Source: Lamellibrachia columna
Taxonomy: Eukaryota; Annelida; Polychaeta; Sabellida; Siboglinidae
DNA length: 64,000 bases
Direction of reading: 5' to 3'
Assembly: GCA_963662155.1 (NCBI GenBank)
Contig: OY759271.1
Coordinates: forward strand, 41,754,000-41,817,999
The stretch's first letter is position 1; every line of letters starts with the position of its first letter. This document shows, in pieces, positions 5,101-56,834 of this stretch. Both the position numbers and the translations under genes were made by a program. Below the pieces are notes generated by a model. That model was not told where the DNA came from, made no database searches, and was given only the letters and a program-made list of their open reading frames with translations.

Positions 5101-8100
5101 TTATGTTGCATGAATTATCAACACAACATAACATAACAAATCTCTTATCATGGCGTCTTAAAACATCTACCGCACTAACAGATTGGTTTATATTCTATGT
5201 GTGCCCCAAAGGTTGATGCCTTGCCAATTCTTAACACAAGTTATGGCTGTAGCAATTATTGATAATGAACAGTAGTGTGATAGCAACATGAGCACTGAAG
5301 TAATTCATATGGAAACAAATCAATAAGTGGTCTTTTGGCTTACACAACTGATATTTAGAAGAAAACAATTTTATGTGCATGCGACACAGCAAGCACTTGT
5401 GAAGTTCATATATGTCATTCTGGCTACAGAGAAATCCACAATGTGATTTTATGAATTTGTAATAAAATATGAGTTATATGACAGTCTAAATTTTATTATA
5501 GGAAATCTAATAATGCAGCGAGTTTTGTGTCCACTGGACTCTATTCAATATACTATTAGCTACTATTAAGTGATGCCTTTAATTAAGGTAATTAAGAATT
5601 GTTACACTGGTCCACATCATAACAAACATGAAGAAAAATGTATTACTGTCAAGTTTTTCAGTGGGACTTCAGCTAATGACAAGATGTTGTGGAGAATGAC
5701 ATCAACACGGTTTAGATGTCAACCTTGCAACCGTGTGACAGGAACAGCTGGGAAAGCTGAGAAAAACTAATTACCTTGACACAGATGATTTAGCAGTGAC
5801 TGATGACCAAAACTGATTATCTTGAGGGAGATTATCAGGGAGATAATCAATAACAGTAAGGGCAACTCATGGATTTCAGCATGAATGGGTAACCTACCGG
5901 TATTTCATATACAAATATAATATATTATAACTGATAAGCTACTACCAGAATTGTAGTTCGCATGAAACAGGTTAGCTATTATATATATATATATATATAA
6001 TATACACAGGTTAGCTATTATATATATATATATATACATATACACAGGTTAGCTATTATATACACACACGCATGCACGCACGCACGCGCACACATAAATT
6101 AATATTGTGTTTGTTGGTGTTAATACAGACTATAGATCAACTTCATTAGGATTAATATTATAAATCATTCACCCATGTTAAACAAATAGTATGTCAGTGT
6201 ATTAATATCATAAATCCATACTTTGTCCATCAATGTTGAAATTATAAAGAATGGGTTAGACAATTCCATACTGTGTGCAAAATTATGATTCAGTTTTAAT
6301 GAAAACTGTCAGTAGCATTTTTTGTTAAATCCTACAATTTAGATTTTTTTAGAAAAATAATATGGAGGGTGCTCCCCGCCTTTCGATTTGTCAAAAAAAA
6401 AACAATGAGGGTGCTCCCCGCCATTTGATTTGTCAACAAAAACAACATGGAGGGTGCTCCCTGCCATTTGATTTGTCAACAAAAAACAACATGGAGGGTG
6501 CTCCCAGCCATTTGATTTGTCAACAAAACACAACATGGAGGGTGCTCCCCGCCATTTGATTTGTCAACAAAAAACAACATGGAGGGTGCTCCCCGCCATT
6601 TGATTTGTCAACAAAAAAGAACATGGAGGGTGCTCCCCGCCATTTGATTTGTCAACAAAAAAGAACATGGAGGGTGCTCCCCGCCATTTGATTTGTCAAC
6701 AAAAAACAACATGGAGGGTGCTCCCAGCCATTTGATTTGTCAACAAAACACAACATGGAGGGTGCTCCCCGCCATTTGATTTGTCAACAAAAAACAACAT
6801 GGAGGGTGCTCCCAGCCATTTGATTTGTCAACAAAACACAACATGGAGGGTGCTCCCAGCCATTTGATTTGTCAACAAAAACAACACGGAGGGTGCTCCC
6901 CGCCATTTAATTTGTCAACAAAAAACAACATGGAGGGTGCTCCCAGCCATTTGATTTGTCAACAAAACACAACATGGAGGGTGCTCCCCGTCATTTGATT
7001 TGTCAACAAAAAACAACATGGAGGGTGCTCCCAGCCATTTGATTTATCAACAAAACACAACATGGAGGGTGCTCCCCGCCATTTGATTTGTCAACAAAAA
7101 ACAACATGGAGGGGGCTCCCAGCCATTTGATTTGTCAACAAAAAACAACATGGAGGGTGCTCCCAGCCATTTGATTTGTCAACAAAAAACAACATGGAGG
7201 GGGCTCCCAGCCATTTGATTTGTCAACAAAAAACAACATGGAGGGTGCTCCCAGCCATTTGATTTGTCAACAAAAAACAACATGGAGGGTGCTCCCAGCC
7301 ATTTGATTTGTCAACAAAAAACAACATGGAGGGTGCTCCCCGCCATTTGATTTGTCAACAAAAAACAACATGGAGGGGGCTCCCAGCCATTTGATTTGTC
7401 AACAAAAAACAACATGGAGGGTGCTCCCCGCCATTTAATTTGTCAACAAAAAACAACATGGAGGGTGCTCCCAGCCATTTGATTTGTCAACAAAACACAA
7501 CATGGAGGGTGCTCCCCGTCATTTGATTTGTCAACAAAAAACAACATGGAGGGTGCTCCCAGCCATTTGATTTATCAACAAAACACAACATGGAGGGTGC
7601 TCCCCGCCATTTAATTTGTCAACAAAAACCAGCATGGAGGGGGCTCCCAGCCATTTGATTTGTCACCGAAACAAACCGGATTCTGTCGTCCAGCCAGCAA
7701 ACAAAATTTAAACCTATGTGCAGCTGTAGTAAACTACAAATGTGCCCTTTTCCCATAGCATAACTATTTTTTAGGGGGCCATTTCAAATTCACTGGCACT
7801 TTATTCATATACCATGAACCTGGATGTAAAATAATGATCTGTCCCAAGTTAGTAAGTTTGATTAACACTACCACCTAGTGGCCAACAAGGCAAACACAAG
7901 TCAGTTGCAGAGCCATCTGGTGGCTAAACACCACACTAGGACAAGCAAATTCACTAAGTGTGAACTAGTGAGGTAGAGAGAGATAGTCCTCATGAGGTGA
8001 CACTCACTATTCCCTGGTCCGGAGAGACCGGTTCAACACACACATAGCTCTCCTTCAGCACCTAAAAACACGCACGTGTGCATGCATGACTCGCGCATGC

Positions 8101-11100
8101 ACACCTACCTACCGCATTACACAGCTCCGCGACACCACAACAGGCAGGGATAATCTGGGTCCAATTTGGGTCAAACAATTCATGAGCAATTAAGTTAAAC
8201 AATAGTGCAATGCATGGTGTGCCTATATAAAACCAAACTTGGGGTGATTCAGTTTGATTGGTAGGGGTGATCTCAAAATATACACAGGACCAGTGACAAA
8301 GAAGGAAAACAAAAAAGAACAATTTGTATCGGTGCCAGCCTCACCCCGGGATAAAGAAGAGAGCAACCACTACACAAAACCATTGCCACTTAACCTTTGA
8401 ACCCCCCCGCCCCCTACATGAAACTTTTAATTACATCGACTTCATATTTGCCAACCATCATAATGCAAACTGCTGGCATGCAATAAAAATCTTCACACTT
8501 ACAAATTGTGATAAAATAAACAATTATGGAAAAATACATTGATGATTGATCATCCCTCAATCATTTAAGTTAAGTGTGTGTACAAGTATGTGCTCATTAA
8601 CATGTGCAAGCTGCCAATGCCAATAACAAATATTTAGGGTAAATTAACCCCAATCACCCCTGTCTGCAAGCAGCATTTAATGCAAACAATAACAGAAAGT
8701 ACAGTAAATAATGGTGAATATACGATTAAGCAAAAGCATTATTTTTTTACACAGAACACATAGAAATGAAAATATATAGTATAACTTAATAAACCTGTTT
8801 GAACAATCCCCTAAGCAAAGATTAAATGAAATGAAACTAAACAGAAGACTAGGGAATGTGACACTGGGAAGGTAGGCAGCCAGGTCCATCACACTTCAAG
8901 TCCACATATGCCACTGGGTATACAGGTCTGGAGAAAATGTCCACACAAATGCTCATATGACAATTTGATGAATGAATAAATGTCCACACAAATGATCATA
9001 TGACAATATGATTAATGAACAAATGTCCACACAAATGATCATATGACAATATGATGAATGAATAAATGTCCATACAAATGATCATATGACAATATGATGA
9101 ATGAACAAATGTCCACACAAATAACAATTTGTCAATCTATCTTATGAAAACATCAACACAAAATTGCATATAAATCTATCACTATGACAACATCCAACAC
9201 TTTGCAATACAACAATGCGATATTCAAATTTGACGAGCAAAATTACACAAAATTAAATTAACGAAGTGATAAAACATGTAGACAACAGCACCACCTGGTG
9301 GCACGTGAGGCTGCTCACCTGGCAGAGGTGATTCTTGAGGATGGAGCCTTCAGGCTCTGGCAGCGGCGGAAGGTCCTCTTTTATTGCACTCGGCTTTATG
9401 ATCTGTGAGCACAAGAGCAGCCATTAACAAACTAAAACACAATGTAGATGACGAGAGACAGTCACAGCACGTGCTATGTACATTTAGTAATGATGATTTA
9501 CAGATAAGCTCTTAGCCATTATTCATCAATATTAGTTTGTCACATAGCACCTGTTATTTTCATAAAATGTCACTAATATTTAAGGTTTAATTAGCTATTC
9601 GTCATTATTTATTATATTTCTCCTAACCCAAGACTTTGCTTACCCTGCTGGAGTCAAGATCAACGACCCAGACGTCATCTGGACAGAGGAAGTCTTTCTT
9701 ATAGAGAAAGAAGCTGGCGGGCACTCCAATGATGTAGGGCGTTGGAGACAACAGCAACTGCAGCAGAGTGGCTCACACAGTCAAATATCCTTTTGCAAAC
9801 ATTGGAGACAACAGCAACGGCAGCAGAGCGGCTCACATAGTGAAATGTCATGTTGCAAACATTGGAGACAACAGCAACTGCAGCAGAGCGGCTCACACAG
9901 TCAAATGCCCTGTTGCAAACATTGGAGACAACAGCAACTGCAGCAGAGCAGCTCACATAGTCAAATGTCCTGTTGCAAACATTGGAGACAACAGCAACTG
10001 CAGCAGAGCAGCTCGCATAGTCTAATGCCCTGTTGCAAACATTGGAGACAACAGCAACTGCAGCAGAGTGGCTCACAAAGTCAAATGTCCTGTTGCAAAC
10101 ATTAGAGACAACAGTAACTGCAGCAGAGCGGCTCACATAGTCAAATGTCCTGTTGCAAACATTGGAGACAACAGCAACTGCAGCAGACTGGCTCACATAG
10201 TCTAATGCCCTGTTGCAAATATTGGAGACAACAGCAACTGCAGCAGAGCGGCTCACATAGTCTAATGCCCTGTTGCAAACATTGGAGACAACAGCAACTG
10301 CAGCAGAGCGGCTCACATAGTCAAATATCCTGTTGCAAACATTGGAGACAACAGCAACTGCAGCAGACTGGCTCACATAGTCAAATGCCCTGTTGCAAAC
10401 ATTGGACACAACAGCAACTGCAGCAGAGCGGCTCACATAGTCAAATGTCCTGTTGCAAACATTGGAGACAACAGCAACTGCAGCAGACTGGCTCACATAG
10501 TCAAATGCCCTGTTGCAAACATTGGACACAACAGCAACTGCAGCAGAGCGGCTCACATAGTCTAATGCCCTGTTGCAAACATTGGAGACAACAGCAACTG
10601 CAGCAGAGCGGCTCACATAGTCTAATGCCCTGTTGCAAACATTGGAGACAACAGCAACTGCAGCAGAGCGGCTCACATAGTCAAATATCCTGTTGCAAAC
10701 ATTGGAGACAACAGCAACTGCAGCAGAGCGGCTCACATAGTTAAATGACCTGTTGCAAACATTGGAGACAACAGCAACTGCAGCAGAGCGGCTCACATAG
10801 TCAAATATCCTGTTGCAAACATTGGAGACAACAGCAACTGCAGCAGAGCGGCTCACATAGTCAAATGACCTGTTGCAAATATACAAATATCTACAACGAA
10901 TTTCTTAATACAAAAAGTCCACACAGTTGAGTTACAACACTATTAAGTGCTTTATTTTGACTAAACAAATGCATAAGATATCCTTGTTGTAACTATAAAC
11001 ATTTCTAAAACATCCTTGTAGTGGCTGTGCAACTGTATAAAACAATCTTGTCAAGATCATTAAAAAGAGAATAAATAAATGAAAAGATAACTTTAAAAAA

Positions 11101-14100
11101 AAAAACAGTCAAACGTAGACAATGAGCAGCTGCAGTTTGGCTCTATCTACTGGAATGTTAAAAGACAACAGAAAAAGACAGGAACATTGTGGGCATATAA
11201 ATAGTTTTTTTGGCAATTCAATGCTTTTGTTCTCATTTCAGACTCGTTTCACCCACAAGTCTAACCCATCCAGGATCTACTACGACACGCTGGCTTCTTA
11301 TTTAGTCTTGGTGAATCCAAACCTGTCAATTATTTTTTAATGGATCCGGTAAAAAATTGGCAATAAAAGTGTCCAGCTCTATATATACCATTACATAAGG
11401 TTACTTACACATTTGCAAGTTACCTGCTATTTAAATCAAATCAAATATATTGTATATACTCTTCACAATACATACAAATCAAATGAAGGCAAAACCTATA
11501 TAATGTAAAGAGAACAATAGGGGAAGAACATTGTATAATGTTATACTCCATATTTAATTAAACCGACTGTGTATATGACTTAAATTATTCACACACTACA
11601 GATTTTAACATCAACAAACCTTATTTGTGATGGGCTAAATCAATTGAGGTGAGATTTTAAGCCAAAATGACCTGATCCACAAACTTGCCAGCACTGCACT
11701 GACGAAATGAAATGTAGGAGAAAGAAGACAGACTGTGGCGGATAATACTAAAGAAGGAACAGGACACAAGAAAGCAGATGGCAAGATCAAACCCCTGTAA
11801 GAAAATAAGGTGGTAATTGACAGACGATGAAGGCAGCTGACTGGAATGACAACATCTTAACAAGAAAGTGCCACTTTAAACGTCGTTATCGGCAGACACA
11901 TATAAAAGGAATCTTTCATCCAAAAATCAATAAATGTTTTGTGACGAATTACAGGTACTCTTTCAGTGTCCTGAGTGCACCAAACTGGCCCCGGAAACAT
12001 CAAAGAAGGTTAACAGGTTTGTATGTGGCACAGATGATCATTCAAAGACACAAATGACTAATTGGGAAATTAAACTAACCGTTATGAAGGAGGCTTGTTG
12101 AATGAGAAACATGAAGGGTCAGAAAAGGATTTATTTGACGGGATGATAAGAAGGTTACAAAACAAGATAGAGTACAAATGCACAGGACAGTAAAAAAAAT
12201 TAATGAAGTACTCAGTGATAGTTCTATACTATAATGGATGCCATAAAATCAAGATTTCACATATACAATAATTGTTGCAAATTACATATCACATAGAATT
12301 GATTCCCTCCCATACAGCTTCAAAGAAACTATCGACAATTATTCTTTCCTTCTTTTAAAACAATAATTTGAAAATGCATCACAAACTTCATTTCAAATGT
12401 CTTGCTCTTGTTGTAAAACTAACATTCCTCTGGACAGAGACATGTATTCTCACATTGAACTCTTGGTATGCTTTAGTGAATGAACGATACTATACAGGTC
12501 TATCATGTATTCTCACATTGAACTCTTGGTATGCTTTAGTGAATGAACGATACTATACAGGTCTATCATGTATTCTCACATTGAACTCTTGGTACGCTTA
12601 AGTGAATGAATGATACTATACAGGTCTATCATGTATTCTCACATTGAACTCTTGGTATGCTTAAGTGAATGAATGATACTATACAGGTCTATCATGTATT
12701 CTCACATTGAACTCTTGGTATGCTTAAGTGAATGAATGATACTATACAGGTCTATCATGTATTCTCACATTGAACTCTTGGTATGCTTAAGTGAATGAAT
12801 GATACTATACAGGTCTATCATGTATTCTCACATTGAACTCTTGGTATGCTTAAGTGAATGAATGATACTATACAGGTCTATCATGTATTCTCACATTGAA
12901 CTCTTGGTACGCTTAAGTGAATGAATGATACTATACAGGTCTGTCATGTATTCTCACATTGAACTCTTGGTATGCTTAAGTGAATGAATGATACTATACA
13001 GGTCTATCATGTATTCTCACATTGAACTCTTGGTATGCTTAAGTGAATGAATGATACTATACAGGTCTATCATGTATTCTCACAAACAACAACTCTTGGT
13101 ACGCTTAAGTGAATGAATGATACTATACAGGTCTATCATGTATTCTCACATTGAACTCTTGGTATGCTTAAGTGAATGAATGATACTATACAGGTCTATC
13201 ATGTATTCTCACATTGAACTCTTGGTATGCTTTAGTGAATGAACGATACTATACAGGTCTATCATGTATTCTCACATTGAACTCTTGGTATGCTTAAGTG
13301 AATGAATGATACTATACAGGTCTATCATGTATTCTCACATTGAACTCTTGGTATGCTTAAGTGAATGAATGATACTATACAGGTCTATCATGTATTCTCA
13401 CATTGAACTCTTGGTATGCTTAAGTGAATGAAAGATACTATACAGGTCTATCATGTATTCTCACATTGAACTCTTGGTATGCTTTAGTGAATGAACGATA
13501 CTATACAGGTCTATCATGTATTCTCACATTGAACTCTTGGTATGCTTTAGTGAATGAACGATACTATACAGGTCTATCATGTATTCTCACATTGAACTCT
13601 TAGTATGCTTTAGTGAATGAACAATACTATACAGGTCTATCATGTATTCTCACATTGAACTCACATTGAAGGAGTGGGGCAGATAGAGGGTGTGGGACAG
13701 ATACAGGGTGTGGGGCAAATAGAGGGTCTGGGGTGGATAGAGGGTGTGGGGCAGATAGAGGGTGTGGGGCGAATAGAGGGTGTGGGGTGGATAGAGACAA
13801 TACAATGCAGCTCACGGAAGGAATCATTCTAGCTAAACATATCCAGAAGTAAGCAAGAAAACCTGCTTGTAGATAACCTATACTAAATGCAGTGCACATG
13901 AAAACACATGACGCACTTGCCATATACATATACAGACATATACAGACAGATAGTGAATAGTACTCGCAGTGGTTTACCTGTTCAGCCAAACTCATACACG
14001 TTGGTAACAGAGGAATGATGGGAAACATGTACTCGAGGGGATACAACATCGTTACGAATGCCATGACGCTCATTGACAGGGCGTTGTAGTCCCGTGACTG

Positions 14101-17100
14101 CAGAATCACCTACAACATACAACAGCAAAACCTTCCACTTGCAAGTAACATTTCAAAACATGAACAAGGAATTTGTGGCATTGTGGCATAAGAAATCAAA
14201 CACCCACCCACCCACCCACCCACCCACCCACCCACCCACCCACCCACACACCCACACACCCACCCACACACCCTCCCACCCACTCCAGAAGCAGCCATCC
14301 AATTACACACATCCACACACAGTACTCACTCTCGCCTATGTAAACAAAATGTACATGTAAATCAGAAACATTACAAAAGAGACACAATTAGGCTAAAACG
14401 TGCGTAAGTTAATAACAAAGCCAACTACCAACACATTTTAAAGAAATTCAAATCTGTATCAAAAGGGTATAACCTACACCCATCCTGTCTGCCTCTATGG
14501 TGATATTCCTCATTCTGTATACCCAGTCGTAATGATATGCAAATCAATCAGACAAGAAAGTACTCATACTCACAGAGGACAATAAATGAATGGAACAGGT
14601 TATCTACAGATTGTGTAAATGTTAGCAGCATGAATATGTTCAAAAGTAACTCTGACAAATATCTCAGAAGGATGGGTTACACATGGATGAGTAAACATTT
14701 GACTCTTCATAATCCAATGATTTACTTGTATACTTGTCATCTGGGCTTGTTGACTTGGATGGCAATCTTGTTAAATATTGTTAAATCAATCAGACCAGCT
14801 GGTAAAATTGATGCTGTCTAAAAATACTGGATGCATAACACTTGACTGCAGCTGACACAGTAACTGAGGATACACTAGAAGTGTGCACAACTTGACCATG
14901 GCTTCACGGCGGTCAGTAGGATTGAGACAAGTGACCAGATAAGGACATGTTGCTAGTTAACCAGTAATTCAATGAAGGACCCAGTGGCTATCAGTAGAGA
15001 ATGGCCGGGTGCAAATGCTTTGTGACAAGGTTGACCATAGTTGAATAACGATGGAAGTGAACAAGTCTCGTCTTGGGCAATGAATGAATGTTGGATCTGG
15101 ATGAAGAGACCTGAAAGTCAAATCATTGCAGCAGACATGGAAGCCATACGAATGAGACATAGGAATGGGACAGACCGAGGAAGGGTGTTCTCCACAGGGA
15201 GAACAAGATCACTCCAATCGTAGAATTTATCTAGATGAACAAATTGAGATGGTATAGTTATGTGATGAGAAGATGATTCTGTTATAAAGACGGCACTGAT
15301 CATCATGATGACTGGAGAGCGACCAAGAGAAAGGCCCAGGATACGTTGGCTCAACACCATCAGCAGTGACCTGGAGCAAGAGAACACCAGCCTCAAAGAT
15401 GTATTCAGAACAGAATGGTACAAGACCCATAGAGAATGGAGCAAGTTGAGTTCATGCCACAACTGACAGTTCTCGTGTCACTTGAATTCCTAATTGGCAC
15501 ATGACAAGCAGGCAGCAAACAAAGTTTTCATATATTGAACAAATCAGGACAAGAAATCATTGTTCATATTTTCTATGCAGAGAAAGGAGCTATTACCAAT
15601 TTTGCACCATTGACTTTATACATAAAAATTTTATTATCTTTATCGTCACAACAGACCCTTTGCCAAGTTAAAGGACATATATATGATATTTAGATTCATT
15701 ATTCCATCTATTTCAAGAAAACAGTACATGTAGTCACTTCTGGTAACATTTACTCTCTACTTTGTCATGCAAGCATCGCGACATGAAAAAAGGGTATATC
15801 CTGCCAGCAGACAAATTATCCACATTTAAAATTCAAATCAGCAGAAATGTCACTATTCAATCAAATATACGCGCTGCTGACGGATGACACTAAATGGGCG
15901 ATGCAGGACTGACGCAGGGCATGCTGATGGGCAATGCAAAATAAATGTGTGTAATTTGATGATCATGCAGACAAAACAGGGGACATAAATATGCTAGTAG
16001 CGGATGTGGGAGAATGGAGATGATGATGTACGTTTATAGCCACAATCAATAGCTGAGTCTCGGAAGATGCACAGAGAATATCTTGTATGCGTGTCATGCT
16101 CATCTAATGTCCTGGCAGAAAAACAGAGACACATGATCACAGGTCATCCACACAGCTTGTGGGTGGATTGTCTCAAGGGCATCTGTCCATGAAGGAGGGC
16201 ATGTGTCTATGGGAAGGGGGGCATGTGTCACTGGGAAGGGGGGCATGTGTCTATGGGAAGGGAGGCATGTGTCACTGGGAGGAAGGCTTCTGTCTCAGGG
16301 AAGGGCATTTCTCCATTAAGAGGAAATCTGTCTCATGGGCATCTGTCTCTGGGGAAGAGGAAAGGGCATTTATCTAGGGGGATGAGGGCATGCTGAGTCA
16401 TGCGGGGTGATCTTCTGCTCCACTTGCACAGACTATCGCTGTATCGCATCAACATGGCAATGCAATTTGTGCAAGAGTTCGTGTCAGTGACAGTGCATGA
16501 CTGCGGCACTGTCGCCAACGGTGCTTCCACCAATGCCGATGGCACTGTCACTGACAGTAATTGTTTGCACACTCTGACATATCAACTAAGTATTGATTTA
16601 CATCCACGACACCATCACATGCCCTGACACATCCATTTCTCTTATCGTTCATCTTCCATACCAACACTATCTACCCTGTACAGAACACTTTTCTATCAAC
16701 ACTATCTATCCTGTACAGAACATTTCTCTACCAACACTATCTACCCTGTACAGAACACTTTCTTTAAATTTTATCCCCTAGACATTTGTATTTACTTTGA
16801 ATTAATGGCTCAGACTTCATTGTTGTATAATAACATAGGCCATAAATATCATCTAATGCCTTTTACAGTCAGCAGACTAATCCGTGCTAATAATTTATAC
16901 TGATAATGCAATTCCCCTGAGTCAGTGCCACAGAGACTCTTCAGCATCAAGTCTGTGGGCCAATAATTGCTGGCAAATGATGTAAAACCAACAATCGAAT
17001 ACACCAGCAGTAGCTGGGATGTGGATACTTTTACACAAACATTTCTATGAAACGATTTAAGTGTGAAATTAGCCACCAGCACCTTTCTGCCGGCAACAAC

Positions 17101-20100
17101 AATTCTTTCATAGCATCAAGTAGTAAAACATCCCACATATATTAAAACCAAAGATGAGTTTTATTTATTTTGACATTTGTTTGCTCTTGTGGGGGTTTAG
17201 TTCAGCACTGTGGGGGTTTAGTTCAGCCCTGTGGTGTTTAGTTCTTCCCCATTGTACCCACCTTGTTCTCCAGGATGATACACATGAGAACCTTGAGACA
17301 GGTATCTACTCCGAGCAGCTCCAAGGGGAGATGGAGAGGGAAGTCTACGAGGGTGAAGCGGGTGTGGTCAGGCAGGGCAAACAACAGCGGGGGTCTCAGC
17401 TCCTTCGGTAACACATTTACCTGAAACATACAATACAATATTTATACAATACTAGCTTACACCCGTCCATGTAGCAAAAAAGTTAAACCACATTTGATTT
17501 TCAAATAGGCTGCCATTATAACATTTCTTTGGATTCCTACAAAAATTGTCCTACAATTTAATTTTCTTAAACATTTCACAGCACATAGGTGCACCATTAA
17601 CACACATGCTATGTGTAGTTTGACAAAATCACATAACATAGTTAAAGGAGGAAAAGAACATGACAGAGGTGAGTGGATGTCGGCGCCTGGGAGGAGATGC
17701 TTCCAGACTGCCCCAAAAGTTAGCGTAATAACATACAGATCACGGAGGCACAGAAGTAGGTAAAGCTAGGTCTGCATTTGCAAAGCTGCAAGCCATATAG
17801 AGGTCCTCTGTGTACTCCTGAAAGACTAAACTCTGAATCTACCAGAGCAATGTCTTCTCTCCGTGCTCCTCTGACTCAGCTATACCAATACCAGACTCCA
17901 CCAAACATAAAAAGATGAGAACATTTACATCATCCTGAAAAGAAGAAGGTGGAAAAGGCTTGGACGTGTCCTAACAGCAAAAGAAGCATTGATTTGAACT
18001 CCACACGGAAAGAGGAAAGAGGCCAGACCACAAACAACATGAAGATGAACCATGGAACAGGAACTGAAGGTTGTTGGGCTGACATAGGGCACAGTGGCCA
18101 GGAGTGCCCAAGACAGAGGGAACTGGAACTGAAGGTTGTTGTGCTGACGTAGGGCACAGTGGCCAGGAGAGTCCAAGACAGAGGGAACTGAAGGGTGCTG
18201 GCTTGACATAGGGCATAGTGGCCAGGAGAGTCCAAGACAGAGGGAACTGAAGGGTGTTGGGTTGACATAGGGCATAGTGGCCAGGAGAGTCCAAGACAGA
18301 GGGAACTGAAGGTTGTTGGGCTGACATAGGGCACAGCGGCTAGGGGAGGCCAAGACAGAGGGAACTGAAGGTTGTTGGGCTGACATAGGGCACAGTGGCC
18401 AGGAGAGCCCAAGACAGAGGGAACTGAAGGGTGCTGGGCTGACATAGGGCATAGTGGCCAGGAGAGTCCAAGACAGAGGGAACTGAAGGGTGCTGGGCTG
18501 ACATAGGGCATAGTGGCCAGGACAGTCCAAGACAGAGGGAACTGAAGGGTGCTGGGCTGACATAGGGCATAGTGGCCAGGACAGTCCAAGACAGAGGGAA
18601 CTGAAGGGTGCTGGGTTGACATAGGGCATAGTGGCCAGGACAGTCCAAGACAGAGGGAACTGAAGGGTGCTGGGTTGACATAGGGCATAATGGCCAGGAG
18701 AGTCCAAGACAGAGGGAACTGAAGGGTGCTGGGCTGACATAGGGCATAGTGGCCAGGACAGTCCAAGACAGAGGGAACTGAAGGGTGCTGGGCTGACATA
18801 GGGCATAGTGGCCAGGAGAGCCCAAGACAGAGGGCACTGAAGGTTGTTGGGCTGACATAGGGCACAGTGGCCAGGAGAGCCCAAGACAGAGGGAACTGAA
18901 GGCTGCTGGGCTGACATAGGGGCTAGGGGAGGCCAAGACATGGGGAACTGGTGAGATCTTGTGCAAGCCTTATGTGCTACACAAGAAGGATAAGTAACTA
19001 TATGAAGTAATATAATATGAAGTAATATAATATGGGGCAGATTTAAACATGAGGCTTGGCAGCACAGTTGGTGAGGATGTTGCTGTCACTTAGTAAACCA
19101 GTGTTTGAATCCTGGGCAGTTTATTCCACCTTGCTCCAGTTCCACGTATAAATGACAGCGATAGAATCATGTGAACAAGCAGCTATTGTAAATAATTGCA
19201 GCATGGCTGAATGGTTCAGAGAGAAGTTAAATGTTCAAGTGAACAGGTTGCCAGTGGGTGAAATGCAATGCACTTACATCAAATATAATTGGTCTTACAT
19301 AAGGGCAAAATATCAACCATACTTTAATTTTTTTTATAAAACCTGCCTTAGACATAGATGTTTTGTTCGTAGCTGCTGTGAAATATTTTTTTTTATTATT
19401 AATGAATGTTATTAAATAGATAAAAAAGAAATCACAATGAAATCACAAAATGAATGAAGAATGAATGAAGAATTTATTCTGAATGCGGTCCAAATTCCCT
19501 AAGAGGATTCATAGTCCATAATTGACTATGAACCCGGGGTCTTTTTTCTATGAGTGTCCATTTGCTATCAGGCACTGTGGCTGTTTGCCTCAGACCTGTT
19601 AAGTCTCCCATTTCTGGCGGGAGGCTCTCGCCTTTGGGACCCATCTCCCATTCACCAGATCGGGAAATTAAATCTCCCGTTATTCATGATTCCTCCCGTT
19701 TTTTATGCTTCCTACTGTTTTTCCCCAACTTTTCCGACTGCACTCCATTTCTTAGAAATAAATAGTTCCTCATTATCATTGTGGCAAAAACTTTCCGAAT
19801 AGCAACACTGTTAATGCTCGTGTCGTTGCATATTTCTGAATTCAATCACCACCGGAATCATGCTATAGATATTTTAATTGGATGGAAATTACCACGTGGC
19901 CTGCAAACATCGAATCAAATGAAGCGTTCATGCGAATGAACATTCCTTCAATCAGCTGTGCATGACACGATGGCGAAGAGATCGTCTTCCTCCTCTTGGT
20001 CCTCTGTTAAAACGAAGAAATATTCTTCGAAATTCCAGCACTCTTGGATTGGGCGAATTAACAGAGGCACATCGCGTTCATTTCTGTAATTCGCACTTCA

Positions 20101-23100
20101 GCATGGCCGTGGTGGAGGACATGATGCAGTTCCCATGTGACCAGATCGCAGCACGTCAGTCTGGACTAAATATTGCTTACTAGTGGTTTTGAGTAATTTG
20201 ATTGTTCTTGATATTATAATTAATGTTCATTATAAACACCCTGGATTCTGTTTTATTCAAGAGGGAACAAGTAACCTGTACAATAATATGCGGCTAATTT
20301 GAGTTAATTTATAATTTAAGGAATCATTTTATTGTTATGAGATATTCTGATTTGTATTTAATAGTGGATGAGTTTGAATGAATTTATCTTCATCTTCTTC
20401 TGTTGCTCAATAATTGAATGTACCATTATTGTTTTAATGCTCATCATTTACAGAATGGGTTCTGTTTAGAGCTGATCAGTATCATTTGTGATATTTATTT
20501 TATTGTCACTATCATGAGTAATGCGTGAATAATTTGAGTTAAATTTTATTTCATACTTAGACAGTCATTTTGATTTTACAGTGGATGAATCTGTTTACCT
20601 GTTTCAAGTGCTCAATTCATCAATGTGCAGTGTTGTGTGAATTTTAAACACAGAATATAATTTATATGTGTTCAGTATATAATTGTTTTTGGTAATGAAC
20701 TTTCTCCTTTGACCGACGTGCAAAAAATTAATCATTTGGTGGGTTGACTTATGATTCTGCATCACGCACAAATCTCCAGTTTTGTCTTTTTAAGAAACTT
20801 AACAGGTCTGGTTTGCCTGAAAATGTACATTATCACCCAGCCAAGTAAGTCAATTAGTGTCCAATTAGTGTCTCTTCCCAGAAACCACTCACAGCCCTAA
20901 CAGGCCCTTAATTGGACACAACATTTCTACTGTGTGCTAATAAGATGGATGGATGCCAAATGTCACTACTGCATCACTTTATGCAATTTAATGACATAGG
21001 CCAGTGTTATATTTTTACATATCTCTGTCCTTTTTCATGACCGTTAAAGAATGAATTTTTTTAAATGATTAAATTAAAAATTACCCATAAACAATAAAAT
21101 CTCTCATTGTCTTTCAAAGAAGTTAATTCAATTATATTAATTCTGTATTAATTAGAGCATGTTTATGTGCCACTAAGTAAGACTGTAGAAGTTTTTTAGC
21201 ATGGGCACACTGTATGCACCAACCACGCCAACACGTACAGTTATCTTCAAAATCATCATTATTTATTTATTTGCTGTTGAATGTCCCATGCCCATACTGT
21301 ATATAACCACTGACTCTGCACTGAGTGTATTTACTATTGAATGGCCCATGGCCATACTGTATACAACCACTGACTCTGAACTGAGTGTATTTACTAATGA
21401 ATGGCCCACGGCCATACTGTATACAACCACTAACTCTGCACTGAGTGTATTTGCTATTGAATGGCCCACGGCCATACTGTATACAACCACTGACTCTGCA
21501 CTGAGTGTATTTGCTATTGAATGGCCCACGGCCATACTGTATACAACCCTGACTCTGCACTGAGTGTATTTGCTATTGAATGGCCCACGGCCATAATGTA
21601 TATAGCCACTGACTCTGCACTGAGTGCTGGGAAATATGCAGAAATGCTCAGTGTTAATTATACAAGAATCTGGCACATTGCAATGCAACCATGACAACTG
21701 TAACTGGGCATCAAAGACCCACCATCTCCCAGTCGAATTATTGATCCGCCATCGACTTCCTCCTGACAGACCAGTTCCTGGAGCACATCAATCTCTGCCA
21801 GCGGTCACCTCGCGGCCATCACAAACTCTCCTCTACGCACTAAATTGGTCAAATTATGCAACAACACAAGACAATTTCATTTGATCTGCAGTCATCATTC
21901 AATTCTGCTGTTTTTAGCAGAACATATGCTGCTTGACACAAAATGTCTGTTATCACAGCACAGCATATGTCTGTCACTGTCCAATTATTGCCCCCTTAAC
22001 ATTACTAATTTGCTAGGCATAATGTTATAACTTGAAGGTAAAACTTCTGATAGTTTATTTATTGTAAAATCATGTTATATAGTATAAACCACATCCATTC
22101 TAACTCTTGTCCACCCAAATGTGTTACAATGAACCACAATTTCTTGATATAATTTGACCATTTTCTGTTTAATTTGATTTTTTTTACGTGAATGTCATGT
22201 TTATATTACATGCTGAATGTCATGTTTACACAGCATGCTGAATGTCATGTTTACACAGCATGCTGAATGTCATGTTTACATTGCAGGCTGAATGTCATGT
22301 TTACATTGCAGGCTGAATGTCATGTTTATGTTGCATGCTGAATGTCATAGTTACACTGCATGCTCAATGCCATGTTTACGCTGCATGATGAATGTCATGT
22401 TTACAATGCATGCTGAATGTCATGTTTACACTGCATGATGAATGTTATGTTTACACTGCATGATGAATATCATGTTTACACTGCATGATGAATGTCTTGT
22501 TTACACTATATGATGAATGTTATGTTTACACTGCATGATGAATGTCATGTTTACACTGCATGATGAATGTCATGTTTACACTGCATGATGAATGTTATGT
22601 TTACACTGCATGATGAATGTTATGTTTACACTGCATGATGAATATCATGTTTACACTGCACGATGAATGTTATGTTTACACTGCATGCTGAATGTCATGT
22701 TTACAATACATGCTGAATGTCATGTTTACACTGCATACTGAATGTCATGTTTACACTGCATGATGAATGTCATGTTTACACTGCACGATGAATGTCATGC
22801 TTACACTGCATGATGAATGTCATGTTTACACTGCATGATGAATATCATGTTTACACTGCATGATGAATGTCATGTTTACACTGCACGATGAATGTTATGC
22901 TTACACTGCATGATGAATGTCATGTTTACACTGCATGATGAATGTTATGTTTACACTGCATGGTGAATGTTATGTTTACACTGCATGATGAATGTCATGT
23001 TTACACTGCATGATGAATGTTATGTTTGCACTGCATGATGAATGTTATGTTTACACTGCATGGTGAATGTCATGTTTACACTGCATGGTGAATGTTATGT

Positions 23101-26100
23101 TTACACTGCATGATGAATGTCATGTTTACACTGCGTGATGAATGTTATGTTTACACTGCATGATGAATGTTATGTTTACACTGCATCCAGGTGTTACAAG
23201 GGATGAGAATGACCTACCTCAACCTTGGTTTTGCCGGGCACACAGACGGGAGCACTGAGGAGACGGAAAATCCACATCTCTATCTCCCGCACCTCATGCA
23301 TGACGAGACTGGGTACCCCCTCCGACACTAGCCCTAGCAACACGCTCCACACACTGTTCCTGAAAGACAGACAACATAGGTCAATGTCTCAGTAAGACAC
23401 CCCACACATTGTTCCTGAAAGACAGACAACATAGGTCAACGTCTCAGTAAGACACCCCACACATTGTTCCTGAAACACAGACAACATAGGTCGACGTCTC
23501 AGTAAGACACCCCACAAACTGTTCCTGAAACACAGACAACATAGGTCAACGTCTCAGTAAGACACCCCACAAACTGTTCCTGAAACACAGACAACATAGG
23601 TCGACGTCTCAGTAAGACACCCCACACACTGTTCCTGAAACACAGACAACATAGGTCAATGTCTCAGTAAGACACCCCACACACATACACAATGCACATA
23701 GAATACATTCTTCTTGGATGTTAGAAAAGTTAGAAGACTTTGCACATTATTAATATAAAATGGAATACAAACTGATACAGTAACATATATCCCATTAGAC
23801 CAATATATCAAACACAATACCAGATGCTCAATAGGCATGCTAATCAGTTTCTCCAAATTAGACATTCATCAACACATTTGAGAATAGCTTCTTCCCATCT
23901 ACAATGAAATATTATCAACCCAAAAGCATTACTTTGTGTGATTCATTAAACATTCAAGTCTCTTCAAACATCTAAAAGACTAACTGATTATGCCAGAGTG
24001 CCCACTGGCATGGTGTGTATTTGTCCTAAAATATCAGCTTCAGTCATTGACAATGGCATAAACAAAATTGTGGTATCTTGTATCAGATAGTTTTGAGTCA
24101 CACTCTAAGCACTTCACTTGGAGCCAGCTGTTATCTGCACAGTCAGACTTCCTCATTTGTCAAGACTGCAGCAAAAACCACAAACAAACTGTATGAAAAG
24201 AATCAAAGGGCAAATCAATGATCACTTTACTTCCTACTCCATTGGCCTGGTTGTGTGGCAGAGACACAATGTCACTGTGCACCCACACAGCTTATGCTAA
24301 AGCAACCACCTCTCACTCAGGTAAACACTGTCCTATCTAATCTACCTCAGTGACAGACGGGTGGCCAGTAGTGGCCAGTGTGTTGCAGCAATGTCATCTG
24401 GACTGAATTGTCTGTTCTGGTGAATGCAAGGACACACCAGTGGTGCTGGCTTAATTGAGCTATTCAAATGTGAAAACAAATATATATTTACTGGAGTCGA
24501 AGAATGCAAATTAACATGTTATGGTGACTATGATAATAAGTCTTTATTGCTGTGTTTGCTGTTAATATATGTGGACAATGGCTGATGTGTTTGTGCCCTA
24601 AGGGTGTTTCTGTTGTTATCTACACGGTGTCCACTTTCTGTTAATATATGTGGACAATGGCTGATGTGTTTGTGCCCTAAGGGTGTTTCTGTTGTTATCT
24701 ACACGGTGTCCACTTTCTCTTGCCATAGATGCGTTCACTAGCCTAATGTTCACACACAAAAATAGAACCGACAAATTAATATTTGCTCATTTATTTCCTT
24801 ACAGAATCATGCCAGACTACTGCTTAGAGACTTCACAATTACAGCTCAACTGATACTGCTGATCAATAATGAATTAAATGATTGCACCTAACTGCGAAGA
24901 TAAGCCGCAGCTGGTCAGGTGCATGAGAGTGAAATCTGACAAGAACTGCCTGTTGTTCCTTGGATCCCACAAAGAGCATTCTGCAAGGCTGTAGATTAAT
25001 CTTCTAATATGTGTTTGCTGCAGATGAAGGCAGGAGGCTGGTAGTATCCTGGTCTGCTCCTGATGGATAAGTGATGTCAAACCTTACTGATCTGCTGTCA
25101 CACTTACTGAGTGTAGGCTGCAATGTGTGTAGCAGAAGCAACAGTATCTTACTGCTGTATTGGGCTTCTACAAATTGAATTACCCTTCATATGTTTATTA
25201 TCAAACTTGATAGATAAACTGATAAAATGCATACACTGTAAAAATAATATATGTGATTTTTTCTTTTTGATTCTGGACACTTTGAATTATCCAGCTTGTT
25301 CTGTAGCTATATATTAACTATTAGCTATTAGCTATTCATCAGATACATGAGAATGAGGCTTGGCACGAGCGGCACTGTTTTCGAAACGCTCGGTAAAACT
25401 TTATATTTTTGGTACTACAAACGTTGAAAATACATCTTTCAAATATCTAATAGAAGCATTATGCCCAGATATCATACAGGTAGCACTAAATTAACAGATG
25501 GAAGCAAATATCAACAAGAAATTGTTAAAACAAAAATGGTTATAAAGAAAGCCATGATCGATAAACAAAGCAACGACCAACCAACCAAAGATGCTTGGAT
25601 GAAACAAACCCACGTAAGTGTAGAAGGGAAAAGGGTTGCAGAAAGGGGTGCAGCAAGGGATGCCGAGAAAGCAAACAGTAAGTGTCACTCAATTACTGAA
25701 ACTCAGACGCAAGGATCTAGAACGGATAATATCAAATCGACCAAAAAAAGAGGACAGTTTCACAAGGTGGTAATTGCAACATCTCAGTCTGACGAAGATA
25801 CCCAGAAATGAAGTGATTATGAAGTAGTGACATGAAGTATTGACATGAAGTAGTGACATGAAGTAGTGACATGCAGCGCAGGCAATGTTAACTTTACCGA
25901 TGACGATGACAAACTACTGATGTGTGAACGATGTTTAGGGTGGTTTTGCACGGCATGTATAGAAATGGATGAAAGAGAGAACCAGCACATGAGGAAGAGA
26001 AAACACACACTGGTTATGCGATGGATGTGATTATTGTGATAACAATGCACTGGCAGCTGTCAGAGTTGATAGGACAGTAGAACAGGAATGCGAAGCATAT

Positions 26101-42151: not shown

Positions 42152-45100
42152 GTAGGTATTAACTGCATAAATCTGTTTAGAAATAATTGTCACATCAACC
42201 TATCTTTATTCCAGTTGTTTATTCATTGTCTATAATTTTCAGTTAAAATGAAGGTTAATCTAGCTGTAGGTTAGACAACTTAAAAAAAAATATTTTAAAT
42301 AAATATCAAGAATGTACACAGATTCAGTAATGGAACATCCAAAATGCCCATGTGTTGAACTGATGAAAACCGTATGCTTCACTTGTTGGTTCAATCGAAC
42401 AGAATCCCACACACTCATTTGTTTCAATATCATTGCTATGTGGACACGTCCATTCCTTATCAATGTGTTACTGAGTCTGTTGTCTCAATTTCTAGCTCAT
42501 TTGGACACCATCAAGCGAAGGAGTTTGGAGTAAACAAAGGATATGTTGGGTGCACAGCAGAGAAAGAATCTTCTGTTAAGAAAGGATTCTGTAAAACACG
42601 ACTCTCTGTATGCAAAGTAGGTGCCTGTTTCCTGATAATCTGTGAACCAGTAATAGCCTATGTTGCCAATTTAACACAGGTTAATGATGTTGTATATTCG
42701 CCAGTATTACTTTGTACTACTCTGCTAATCAATGTTGGTCAAACAGTGCAAATCAAACAGTGTGGTGAAGGTCATTCCTCTATGTGCTTTTTTTTGTTTG
42801 TCTTATTTCAGATTACATTTTATGAAAAAAATTAACCTATCTTGTATCCACTATAGACATGCTAGCTCATTTGTACAAAATATGTCAGTTAGTTTTGGTG
42901 AAATAAATATTGTTGATTTATTGTTTTAAAAATGCCAACTAATATTTACACTTCATTTGCCTTCAGCTGAACCAACTGGTAGTGAATGAGTTTGTCGCGT
43001 CAGGTATTCCTGCAATTGCACTGTCGGTAAGTTACAACTGGTCTCACAAATAGACCTGGTTCAAAGCTTTCACAAATTCACAGCTCTTTTAAGCACTTTA
43101 TGACTAATGCTAATTTAGTAGCTCTTTTTTAATTTAATTTCCATGCAGACTCTGTAGTGTCTGTGTGAATACTTTGTGTGTATGCCATGCAGACTTTGTA
43201 GTGTCTGTGTGAATACTTTGTGTGTATGCCATGCAGACTTTGTAGTGTCTGTGTGAATACTTTGCGTGTATGCCATGCAGACCATGTAGTGTCTGTGTGA
43301 ATACTTTATGTGTATGCCATGCATACTCTGTAGTGTCTGTGTGAATACTTTGTGTGTATGCCATGCAGACTCTGTAGTGTCTGTGTAAATACTTTGTGTG
43401 TATGCCATGCAGACTCTGTAGTGTCTGTGTAAATACTTTGTGTGTATGCCATGCAGACCTTGTAGTGTCTGTGTGAATACTTTGTGTGTATGCCATGCAG
43501 ACTATGTAGTGTCTGTGAATACTTTATGTGTATGTCATGCAGACTCTGTAGTGTCTGTGTAACGACTTTGTGTGTATGCCATGCAGACTTTGTAGTGTAT
43601 GTGTGAATACTTTGTGTGTATGCCATGCAGAATCTGTAGTGTCTGTGTGAATACTTTGTGTTTATTCCTTGCAGACCCTGTAGTGTATGTGTGCATACTT
43701 TGTGTAGTGTAGTGTCTGTGTGAATACTTTGTTTTTATTCCTTGCAGACCCTGTAGTGTATATGTGCATACTTTGTGTGTATTCCATGCAGACCCCGTAT
43801 TGTATGTATGAATCATGGGTGGATTTAAGGGGTTTTGACCATATGAAAGAAGATGGTCAACATTTTCAGTTCAATGTTTGTGCAACAAATGCATGATATG
43901 CCCACACAAGCGAATCATGGGCTACGTTGTATGCACAGATACATTTGTGTTAACGTCTTGTGACCGTTGAATTGTTCATGCCCTGGGCCCCTAGCATGCT
44001 ACGTTTGGATACTGGTCAAAATGTATGTATGGATCCGCCCGTATGAATATTTTATATTTATTCCTCTGCAGCCCTGTGGTGGGTGGGTAACCCACAACGG
44101 GGAGGTGATAGCTGATGGGTGTCAGTCGGTGAAGGCCTTGCTGCAGGCCAACTTTGTACCTGTTCTTCATGGTGACTGCGTTCTCGACACCGCCAAGGGC
44201 TGTCACATCCTCAGTGGAGACATTATAATTAAGGTAAGAATTCTTACATTTTGACATGTGTATTTCTAAGACACTCTCAATAAAGTGCTAGTGAATTGCC
44301 ATAGAACACCAGACTGTCAGTCAAGAGGACTGTCAGTCAAGAGGACTGTCAGTCAAGAGGACCGGGTTTCAAGTCCAAATTGCTGCTGTTTCAAAACTTG
44401 GGCAGTTATCTTCACCCCACATTGCATGTCCTGTATCTTTCGAAAGAGACACTAACAGCCGTTGGTCCCTTCTACCTGGTGTCTGTGTCAGGGGAAGTAA
44501 AACCTCCTACACAGGGAGTAAATGTATAACCTGTCGTGTACTCAAATAGTGGTGGTTTCTAATTCTGACCCACCCATCCATGCCAGACAGTTGATGGTAC
44601 AATTGAGGGATATCATGAAAGTTCCATCCTGCTTGAGACTACTGTACTTGTATATATTTTTCACTCACTAATAATGTGTCAATTATAATGGAAATGAGTC
44701 GTTGGTGTTAAACTTGTGCACTTCTTGGTAACATTCTGACGTTTCTTTATAGATCCTCTGTGCTGAGCTGAAACCAAGATGGGTTGTTTTTCTCTCTGAT
44801 GTTTTAGGCATTTATGACAAGCCACCTATTGCAGAAGGTTTGTGTCGGTCATAAGGACAGAAGATATGTATTTAAATTGAGGAAATATTTTGACCTGAGT
44901 CATTAAATTAGAAGTGGACATATTAAGTCAAAGTCCACACTTTAATGATACTTACACAATGAAGTGCATCATTACTATATTCAGTTGGCAATTAATAAGA
45001 TGTTTATAGCAATAGCTAGACCATCTATATCTGAAAGTTGTCAAATCTTTTGCAATATTACATACAAGTGATCTCTGAGTCAACAACTGTGTGAGTCAAG

Positions 45101-51179: not shown

Positions 51180-53302
51180 CATAAATCGCACAATTCGAAT
51201 CATAATCTGATTTTGAATTGGTAAACAATCTGCTAAAAGTGGCACCATGTTACAGTGAGTGCAAACTGGTAGATTGAACAGTTTTCTGATACCTTTGCGC
51301 CACGTAGTCTAAAACTCCTCATATTTGTCTTGTAAGTTCCACAGACATACGTCATAAAAAGACGTACAGAACAGTATAATATAAATAATTGACGTTTTGT
51401 GCTTATATTACAAAACCAAAAATTTGCAGATAATTCATTTACACGCCATATAAAGTCATGACACATCTTTAACTATAGCCTGGTGAGTGCCAGGACCAAT
51501 AATGTGGCCTACATGCAACCCTTTTTTACTCTGTTTCACTTGTATGCCATCAAAGGAAAATGGGCAGTCGGTACTGCTTCCATATTTAATAAGTTGACAT
51601 TTTGAAGGGTTAAATTGTAAATCATATCCATATACAAATTCTTGACATATATCACACATTTTGTTCAGTGCATCTATTGATGGAGCTACTAGAGATATAT
51701 CATCAGCATAGCCAACTGCACCATAGTACTTATGACCAATCGTACAACCGAATCCAGACATGCATAGTCTTGTTAACATGTCATCAATATAGATAGAGAA
51801 TAAAATGGGGGATAGCACCCCATCCTGCTTCACTCCACTAGTAGTGGAGAAAGGGGATTCAATCATCGATCCATCAGTAAATTAAAAAGTTTAACCTAAT
51901 TTACTTTATCAAATGTTTTAATAGCATCTAGTAATAACACATAAACATCAGATTTATTCTGGTGGAAATAGCTCACAGTCTCCATTAATGTAAATGTACA
52001 TTTAGCTGTGGAGCTCTGAGGTTTAAAACCAAACTGTAAATCACTTGTTTTAAAAACATCCGCACTTTTATCATTATAACCCAATCAAATATTATCGCCA
52101 GGGGGGGCTACTAAGAGCAATGGCTCGATAGTTATCATAGTCATTTGCTGGATTCCTCTTGTTTTTTTTTACCAGAGGTTGAATTGTGGCTATATTAAAA
52201 TCATCCTGGGTATACGCTTGAAACACCATTGATGTGAATAGCAAAGATAGAAAAAACATGTAGTTTGCGAGGAGCATGAATAAAGTGGTCGGTATATACC
52301 AACCCGTATCCATCACATTTGTTACTTTTAACATGGTTAATACCATTCAAAACATCATCAATAGTAACAATATTTTCAGAGTCATTACATTGTGCATCTA
52401 CTTTACTATGTATATTTTGTAACAATGACGTCATGTCCTCTTCATTCTAAGCTACTGAATTATATAAGTCATCATACTTAGTAGCAAAGAGTTTAGAACT
52501 ATTTTCGTCTGTTACTGTTACTTCATCAACCATGTTGGGTAGCGTAGTGTTGTTCTTTGTAACTTTACCAACTTCTTTCCAGAAATCCCTATTTTTATTT
52601 CCAAGTAAAGCTGTAGTCATACTTTCTTTTTTAACATTATTTTGATTACGTTTAACAAAACAAACAGCTCTGTGGCATTGAGAACGTGATCTACTCATTA
52701 CATCAGCAATAACAGCGTTGTGAGGAGAGTCACAATCTTCCCATGCATTGTGCCAACAAATTGACGCTTCTCTGTATGGTTTAACGTGCTCGTTCCAACC
52801 CGCTATTACATTAGAATTGCATTGCTTTGACGTATGTGGAATGGAGTCCTGTGAAGCTCTTATACAACAATCCATTATTGAATAATGAAAAATCTTAATA
52901 TCATGACAATGAGCTAACCTACTAGGACAATTTTTAACGCGGCTTTGTAAAGAATGCCATGGTATAGATAATTGATCAATAACTTTTACTAAAACTGTGC
53001 TGCACTGACTTAGGTTACGGTGTGATGCTTCTTGCCATTTAGGTCTAGATATGTACCTTCTAGAGAAATATGCACAATAATTAATATATAAATTCAAGGT
53101 AAGACCGAGTGGTGAATGAAATGACAAATTTGAGCCATCATGCATACTATAATATTCTAACATATGGTCAATGTATATCAAACATTATTTCCTTCAAAAT
53201 CAATACATGGCTTGATTGATTTATGTTCACAAATGTAATTTAAATGTTTCGTAAAGTTTTCAGATCACCTCCAATAATGAAGTTAGAACAGTTCATTACA
53301 TT
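51180..53302 (-). pseudogene. LINE ORF2 remainder: endonuclease end, reverse transcriptase, C-terminus
   Basis: Pieces in several frames include 'NFIIGGDLKTL' (53280), a long linker (53181-52447), 'LVKKNKRNPANDYDNYRAIA', 'LLDAIKTFDKVN' (first RT Asp; Ala to Thr in the usual KAFD), 'SGVKQDGVLSPILFSIYIDD' and 'VGYADDISLVAP' (YADD box). The C-terminal region is readable to about 51180. At least three frameshifts interrupt it. Confidence 0.82.
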
Positions 53303-53309
53303 ACATATT

Positions 53310-53507
53310 TGGTAGGGCGTCTCGGTGGGTCTTCTATCAGTTGATAGTCATACACATCAAAAATGCAGCACTTGCTCCAACTGAGCTAGGTGGCTGTCGA
53401 AAATCGGCTTTTTCGTTACCCCAGGACGAGGCTGGTACGTCAGCTGTTCAAAATACTAATTAGCTGGTGGTGACGCCTATCGATTAACATGGTGTCACCC
53501 TGCTACA
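53310..53507 (-). repeat. LTR (3' LTR in element orientation), 198 bp
   Basis: It begins TG and ends CA in either orientation ('tggtagggcg' to 'accctgctaca' on the plus strand). By eye it is identical to 56861-57058. On the minus strand it contains 'CAGCTGACGTA' and an A-box-like 'TAGCTCAGTTGG'. Confidence 0.92.
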
Positions 53508-53516
53508 TCCTCCCCA
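53508..53516 (-). promoter_or_regulatory. polypurine tract of the LTR element
   Basis: The minus strand reads 'GGGGAGGA' directly against the 3' LTR, in the expected place for plus-strand DNA priming. A second copy of the same segment ('tcctccccaactaa(a/c)tctt' on the plus strand) lies about 122 bp inside, near 53630-53660. Confidence 0.7.
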
Positions 53517-53644
53517 ACTAAATCTTAACCGTCCCGGTTACTATATAAAAAAAGAACATCCCGCTGGAACTCTAGGGTTCTCCCAAATTCCTGCGTATCA
53601 AAAGTCCCTCTAAAAATTCCTCCTGGGTCCTCCCCAACTAACTC

Positions 53645-54730: not shown

Positions 54731-54996
54731 CCCATGGTCGTCACGTCCAACTCGACGTACCCAACATACGGTATATCTAAACCGTTTGCAGCGGTGAGCT
54801 TCAACCAACTGCAAGACGCCAGCTCTCGGTCGTTTCGAGCAATGTACTTACGAAAGAAAGACTCAGTGATAGTACTTACTTGGGAACCTGTGTCAAGTAA
54901 GCAATTGACCTCCACACCTCCCATCAAGACAGTTGCCGTAGGGCAAGTACCAACGGTCGCGTCAGTTGGCGCGGTAGCGTGTGAGCCTGTACGCAC
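54730..54996 (-). CDS. retropepsin-type aspartic protease fragment
   Basis: It encodes 'VEVNCLLDTGSQVSTITESF' with the catalytic DTGS. It would mature Gag-Pol. After 'VELDVTTMGQT' the sequence passes into integrase, at the internal deletion junction near 54730, so the usual RT domain never follows. Confidence 0.8.
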
Positions 54997-55031
54997 TAGC
55001 TCGTCTACCCGACTCTTGGTAACGAGCGGCG

Positions 55032-56198: not shown

Positions 56199-56834
56199 GT
56201 CTGCTTGCTAGTTGCGACTGCCCTACTAAGTATTAACCCAGATGTATACCAAATTCCCAGTACGGAACAAAAGTTATATACCCGTTATACCCATGAATAA
56301 CATTCGTATCTACAGGACTACTCTGCACCCTCACAACTACAGATACATCTTACTCAGAAAACATGCCTAACTAACACGCAAATGTCAAAAAGTCCCTCTA
56401 AAAAAAATTCTGATACTGGCTATCTCTATAATGCTGCTATAGCTACACAGACAGGATACACAATACAGTTCCTAATTATACAGTGAACGGGTATCAATTC
56501 AAAATTCAATCGTTTGTCAATGCAGTCAGGATCTAAGTCACTTAGCGTCACGGCACGTCACGTGGCTCGATCGTCGCGTGTCGGGGCTAGTCATCGTCGC
56601 GGCCGAATAGTGTTAAACCGGAAATGTCACTCTTGAGTCGCTCGAGGTCGTCATCAGTGTCTACGGTCCTCACTCGAACAGGGCCGGACCGGAAGTCGCC
56701 TTACTCTCGGTCAAACGTCAGACCGGATGTCGAGGACGTCAGGATGTCGCTCGAGGTTGTCATCAGGGTCCAGGCTCCTTACTCGACTCTACGTCTCCGC
56801 CACCTCGCCTCGTCTTCGTGGTCTCGTCGCGTTA

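Follow-up and report, generated by a model that had tools for sequence, protein, structure and literature searches.

Minisatellites across splice junctions in the tubeworm Lamellibrachia columna: an acceptor array at MADD exon 5, probably of the mirage type

Known minisatellites across splice junctions

Minisatellites that span the boundary between an intron and an exon were first described in amphioxus, where they are called mirages, with examples in Adh3, the globin genes BflGb6 and BflGb9, PGBD5, and troponin C (PMC3087553, PMC3902484). The repeat units measure 10-160 bp (PMC3087553), and the genes that carry them are reported to splice normally (PMC3087553; PMC3902484). A 60-bp minisatellite across the acceptor of exon 5 of the MADD gene in the tubeworm Lamellibrachia columna shares the features given there: a minisatellite-like unit spanning a boundary (acceptor or donor), copied splice signals, and edges that are less homogenized. 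The copy numbers are higher, with 19 at this exon and up to ~40 in myosin genes of the tubeworm, compared to 6 and 3 quoted for BflGb6 and 2-7 for PGBD5. In contrast to amphioxus, the host of the mirages, the tubeworm is an annelid, and its arrays, when counted, are more frequent than random birth would predict.

The minisatellite of the human gene IFI6 (6-16) is reported by Turri et al. (1995) to give multiple splice donor sites, with the repeats being used in transcripts. It resembles the exon 5 array in supplying repeated splice sites and differs from it in that these are donors, whereas the site at exon 5 is an acceptor. The variable-number tandem repeat (VNTR) in intron 18 of ABCA7 is described as a tandem repeat with a splice site inside it, in which use of a cryptic site of the unit shifts the frame (PMC5954066). 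Contrary to the exon 5 array of MADD, which copies an acceptor, this repeat copies a donor in a 25-bp unit and was shown to affect splicing. In a potato gene, a boundary-crossing duplication carries the branch site, the pyrimidine tract, and the acceptor, as in the tubeworm; there, one duplication led to a new intron (PMC4974935), whereas in the tubeworm the array is long and a new intron is not seen.

Searches of open-licence papers for arrays of this sort and for the genomes of tubeworms listed no report of junction-spanning arrays in annelids, and passages of the Ridgeia genome paper mention tandem repeats as a method step. The comparisons described below make a mirage, with a unit spanning the junction, the probable reading of the exon 5 array: a passive tandem duplication, spliced at the exon-proximal copy, and one of many in the genome.

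The MADD gene in the window

The window, the whole stretch of 64,000 nucleotides that was analysed, corresponds to C11:41754000-41817999 of an 880-Mb assembly of 30 contigs. Its minus strand contains the 5' part of a gene in which 11 exons join into an open frame of 710 aa. This frame, the uDENN and DENN domains of the gene product, and named MADD relatives among the matches bear out the identification of the gene as MADD in the first-pass annotation. A twelfth exon, a 54-bp cassette at window positions 8008-8061, encodes 18 residues, all of which are identical in the record of Lamellibrachia satsuma. The parts of the gene needed here are as follows:

1959-37083, minus strand: MADD exons 1-11 together with the cassette exon 6b; the gene runs on to the left of the window
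9644-9757, minus strand: MADD coding exon 5, 114 bp, phase 0/0, ending in SSR; true acceptor before 9757; placed by protein match
13978-14109, minus strand: exon 4 of MADD, whose donor opens the array-bearing 4,220-bp intron
18060-18921: 59-bp x14.5 minisatellite in MADD intron 2
23218-23359, minus strand: MADD exon 2, 142 bp

The MADD protein of L. satsuma is the nearest by identity among the best 120 matches listed (of at least 7,996 candidates sharing most words). Of the 470 aligned columns, which cover exons 3-11, 447 are identical (~99%), 5 are substituted, and 18 contain gaps; the amphioxus MADD protein shows 60-62% identity to that of the window. These values point to a vestimentiferan host, and an origin in fish or amphioxus is rejected. 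The L. satsuma protein has exons 4 and 5 joined exactly at the exon-proximal acceptor, in a record that is a gene model and may lack an RNA basis. This record is without exons 1 and 2, and its first 98 residues correspond to the translated minisatellite of intron 2 (90% identity). Going by this match, the 98-residue start is an annotation artefact of an imperfect gene model, and the 59-bp array of intron 2 is, on the same grounds, common to L. satsuma and the genome of the window. Nineteen more MADD exons were mapped with the L. satsuma protein in the 70 kb to the left of the window, with the donor of exon 16 and the exon for residues 1524-1539 unplaced and one acceptor 1 base off.

Minisatellites are dense in this region. 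The 15 arrays selected from the TRF output (unit of at least 20 bp, at least 4 copies) make up 16% of the window, and 25 arrays occupy 25% of the MADD gene.

Elsewhere in the window, a plus-strand exon is located at 44072-44233, which we take to resemble isopentenyl phosphate kinase; it matches no Pfam family at E 0.001, and its two junctions are without copies. Retroelement fragments lie on the minus strand at 51456-56207 and comprise a reverse transcriptase, an integrase, and a Gag-like PNMA/zinc-knuckle frame. Pfam searches with ten other open reading frames of the window found nothing beyond integrase, PNMA/zinc knuckle, and reverse transcriptase, and Rfam and tRNA scans of the whole window found nothing.

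Anatomy of the exon 5 array

A 60-bp repeat in 19 copies had been noted before MADD exon 5. TRF recovers it as a 60-bp unit in 19.0 copies at 9742-10879 with 93% matches, and the unit alignment refines its ends to 9742-10881, as full 60-bp units extend to 10881. The aligned units show a mean pairwise identity of 93.7%. The array is built as follows:

9742-10881, minus strand: 60-bp x19 minisatellite across the MADD exon 5 acceptor; unit of 44 intron and 16 exon bases
9742-9801, minus strand: copy 1, the true acceptor unit
9802-9861, minus strand: copy 2, the decoy next to the true acceptor; its acceptor AG is gone (CTGCCG), as is a second AG (CAACATG)
9862-10881, minus strand: copies 3-19, each of the 17 with a decoy acceptor whose AG is kept; every path leads to an in-frame stop

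The terminal copy contains the exon 5 acceptor itself, ctctgctgcag/TTGCTGTTGTCTCCAA (the slash marks the junction, at 9757 on the minus strand), which agrees with the original description of a unit holding a working type of 3' splice site, here the acceptor with 16 exon bases. The other 18 copies lie upstream within the intron in exact 60-bp steps. The count of 19 tandem acceptors given at first is too high: the AG is kept in 17 of the 18 upstream copies (18/19 overall) and is missing from the nearest, copy 2, and a branch-point match is absent from 5/19 units. The branch-point-like tttgac, formerly assigned to each unit, is present in its exact form in 12/19 (count from the unit list). The pattern yUnAy is found 24 nt upstream of the junction in 14/19 units, with TTAGAC instead in 5, and a donor-like GTGAGC is contained in 18/19.

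Reading in the MADD frame from the 18 decoy starts leads in every case to a stop after 9, 11, or 14 codons. Use of a decoy would truncate MADD, as had been predicted; the stop had been described as a TGA, which holds for 13 of the decoy starts by codon count, while the other 5 end in TAG. The intact MADD frame comes from the exon-proximal acceptor, the site favoured from the outset and the one used in the L. satsuma gene model. With a unit that spans the intron-exon boundary, a length of 60 bp within the 10-160 bp range (as is the 55 bp at exon 2), and splice signals in many but not all copies (AG in 18/19, branch-point match in 14/19), the array shows these traits of a mirage.

A DNA search of the locus against the 880-Mb assembly, with a tool that skips very common words, returned the locus itself as the sole match. 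An exact 28-mer from the array has 0 matches in genome_contigs and viral_contigs, and phage records contain no match to the array. The long open frame of the array (window 9699-10904) gave, as a protein query, 171 candidates, with 0 at E 0.001.

Junction-spanning arrays elsewhere in MADD and in other genes

Beyond the array described in the first-pass annotation, MADD carries three more junction-spanning arrays, one of which lies in the window:

23347-23684, minus strand: second acceptor array, 55-bp x6, at the MADD exon 2 acceptor (tctgtctttcag/GAACAGTGTGTGG)

The decoys of this array keep the AG in 5/5 cases, and translation begun at any of them runs into a stop after 11 or 45 codons. A 25-bp x40 array at window positions 22189-23186 starts 32 bp from exon 2, which places minisatellites on both sides of this exon. 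A search with 24 bases around each junction, allowing up to 5 mismatches, shows tandem junction copies at 2/11 acceptors and 0/12 donors of the window. The left-hand part of MADD has junction copies at 2/16 donors and, apart from one stray match with 5 mismatches, at 0/19 acceptors. The exon 23 donor is followed by a 30-bp x18 array (C11:41737763-41738295), several copies of which carry GTAAG- or GTGGG-like donors, and the end of exon 27 together with its donor forms a 76-bp unit in 4.0 copies at 100% identity (C11:41734550-41734856). Altogether, junction-spanning arrays are found on 4/31 MADD exons.

The search for the Myosin_head family gave at least 77 exon matches, of which 76 were examined, and scored 65 of 247 first-look candidates, making the counts a lower bound. 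Eleven clear junction arrays are found on 11/76 myosin exon matches, 4 at acceptors and 7 at donors (loci L011, L015, L016, L017 with two, L026, L034, L038, L042 with two, and L044); flagged places in L031 and L047 and a second one in L015 were left uncounted. The acceptor array of L016 (4279-8370, gene strand) repeats a 101-bp unit 40 times with ~50 exon bases per copy, and in L044, 40 copies of CAG/GTGAGT lie downstream of one myosin exon. Among chaperonin exons, an acceptor array is found at 1/16 exon matches (L061, 96 bp x ~2), in a sample of 16/48 matches, namely rows 3-18, each taken with 150 bases on either side.

Decoys were found in 14 of the 15 MADD and myosin arrays, and 117/152 of those followed are intact, with the following ended early in L044 (6 of ~41), L016 (30 of ~39), L038 (1), and L017b (0). 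Separated by type, 63/64 acceptor decoys and 54/88 donor decoys are intact. Donor decoys are mostly without GT in L011 1101-2046 (5/20 kept) and in L042 7925-8658 (L042a, 9/22 kept). Changes of the spliced-site dinucleotide are commoner than changes in the surroundings (37/304 vs 217/3344), mainly due to L011 and L042a. The loss of GT in these two arrays runs counter to the favoured reading of passive duplication.

Frequency of junction-spanning arrays compared with random birth

In the window, the gene span holds 12 arrays, and 2 of these run across an exon edge, compared to 0.10-0.19 expected under random placement (P 0.005-0.015); the same test with 11 exons gives P 0.004-0.010. A model of random birth, in which the chance of the first unit spanning a given junction equals unit length divided by sequence length, predicts 0.88 junction-spanning arrays in MADD (25 arrays, 62 edges), where 4 are seen, and 2.88 in the myosin genes (81 arrays, 152 edges), where 12 are seen (11 clear arrays and one 1-bp touch). 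The pooled count is 16 vs 3.76 expected, or 15 without the touch, an approximately fourfold excess (Poisson P 2e-6); this count takes the ends of family matches as exon ends, disregards exons without a match, and comes from few and partly paralogous genes. The background count includes both the L020 and L021 myosin stretches, which overlap by 1 kb. Arrays that end 1-60 bp outside exons show no excess in the MADD and myosin stretches, with 6 vs 4.7 expected (P 0.33). Since these near misses are at expectation, nearness to an exon alone does not explain the excess at junctions.

Origin and turnover of the exon 5 array

Translated, the exon bases of the unit give LLLSP of the sequence EQLLLSPTP, and EQLLLxPTP has 176 occurrences among 236 fetched homologues. 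Because the exon part encodes this conserved sequence, the exon came first and seeded the array, as the first reading of the locus had proposed. In the suggested mechanism, a 60-bp segment, comprising 44 bases from the 3' end of intron 4 and 16 from the 5' end of exon 5, would have been tandemly duplicated. Expansion to 19 copies would have followed by slippage or unequal exchange, with new copies probably added on the intron side.

The exon 5 units contain 19 distinct variants. Several copies are identical or nearly so (9=15, 10=16=18, 11=13), and private changes are commoner at the exon-side edge of the array. These internal blocks of copies, along with the divergence at the edge, suggest later turnover. 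At exon 2, the same 8 bp, GTGTGTGG, border the array at its intron end and recur within the exon, which could fit slippage between short repeats; a truncated copy is equally possible. The flanking microhomology of the exon 5 array is 1 bp only. In copy 2, 2/3 private changes remove AGs, compared to 0/16 other variants (Fisher P 0.018, post hoc). Selection against the nearest decoy, and not neutral change alone, may account for these losses, but all 5 exon 2 decoys are intact, the nearest included.

Splice-site choice and competing explanations

A simple matrix scores the real exon 5 acceptor at 5.6 and its AG-keeping decoys at 4.1-6.6; the corresponding scores at exon 2 are 10.5 for the real site and 8.7-10.5 for the decoys. 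Within intron 4, 26/266 AGs score at least as high in this simple matrix as the real exon 5 acceptor, itself included. Site strength was rejected as the selector, as the real exon 5 acceptor is no better than the AG-keeping decoys, and so was an RNA structure hiding the decoys, with z = 0.74 and 74/100 shuffles folding as well. Exon definition from the downstream donor is an ordinary candidate for the choice of the proximal site.

Because the intact MADD frame arises from the proximal copy alone, splicing in the host species probably takes place there, and this copy would stay the true acceptor. The upstream copies would be passive decoys, use of which would give an early-stop transcript that is expected to be degraded; decoy use is presumably rare or removed by such decay. 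The overlapping scores of real site and decoys, the 1-bp microhomology, and the AG losses of copy 2 count against this passive reading. A harmless array is still the better reading compared to one tuned by copy number, in which the number of units would set the share of decoy-spliced, decaying transcripts and in this way regulate MADD output. Such a device could draw on the AG in 17/18 decoys, on scores like that of the real site, and on the stops met from all decoys, and human ABCA7 provides a precedent in a donor VNTR whose length alters splicing (PMC5954066). It is nonetheless distinctly improbable given that the branch-point match is gone in 5 units and the AG in the nearest decoy, that the splice core shows no sign of special conservation (2/20 vs 14/40 variable sites, P 0.06), and that many unrelated unit sequences at many exon edges argue against a MADD-specific device. 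An array that is collapsed or expanded by the assembly and therefore of the wrong length is highly improbable: the four copies of the exon 27 array at 100% identity would fit it, whereas the distinct variants and internal structure of the exon 5 units and the many like arrays on several contigs do not.

Two further readings compete with the passive duplication of a junction. In one, the array would be a stage on the way to intron gain or intron sliding, with the junction copies supplying new introns or exons. The pairing of an acceptor with a donor-like GTGAGC in 18/19 units fits this view, as do the potato intron derived from a boundary-crossing duplication (PMC4974935) and the proposal of mirages as an intron route (PMC3087553). 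The proximal site, however, already yields a full reading frame, there is no sign of a new intron, and any internal exon, at 41 bp (16 + 25), would shift the frame, which makes this reading improbable. Splice junctions may, tentatively, be favoured sites of minisatellite birth, for example, through DNA breakage linked to transcription or splicing, so that the arrays would mark a mutational process. The 16 vs 3.76 spanning arrays, set beside 6 vs 4.7 ending just outside exons, point in this direction. An equal excess would result from duplication across whole exons with purging of purely exonic arrays, and the count is drawn from three gene families with inexact match ends and non-independent paralogues, one of the 16 being the 1-bp touch.

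Significance

At exon 5, the spliceosome faces 18 near-identical acceptors spaced 60 bp apart, with the right one lacking a score advantage, which constitutes a natural test of proximal splice-site choice. If the sampled rate holds (4/31 MADD exons, 11/76 myosin and 1/16 chaperonin exon matches), the genome offers very many such tests, at acceptors as well as donors, with copy numbers between 2 and 40 and with decoys that range from intact to dead. Should junctions be hot spots, which is conceivable although doubtful, about one exon in eight to ten would carry a multiplied splice site, and the splicing machinery would routinely ignore dozens of near-identical decoys. Breakage tied to transcription or to the loading of spliceosomes could underlie this, as could a tolerance, absent from other genomes, of duplicated junctions. 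Junction arrays bear furthermore on intron gain and on gene annotation, as in the MADD record of L. satsuma.
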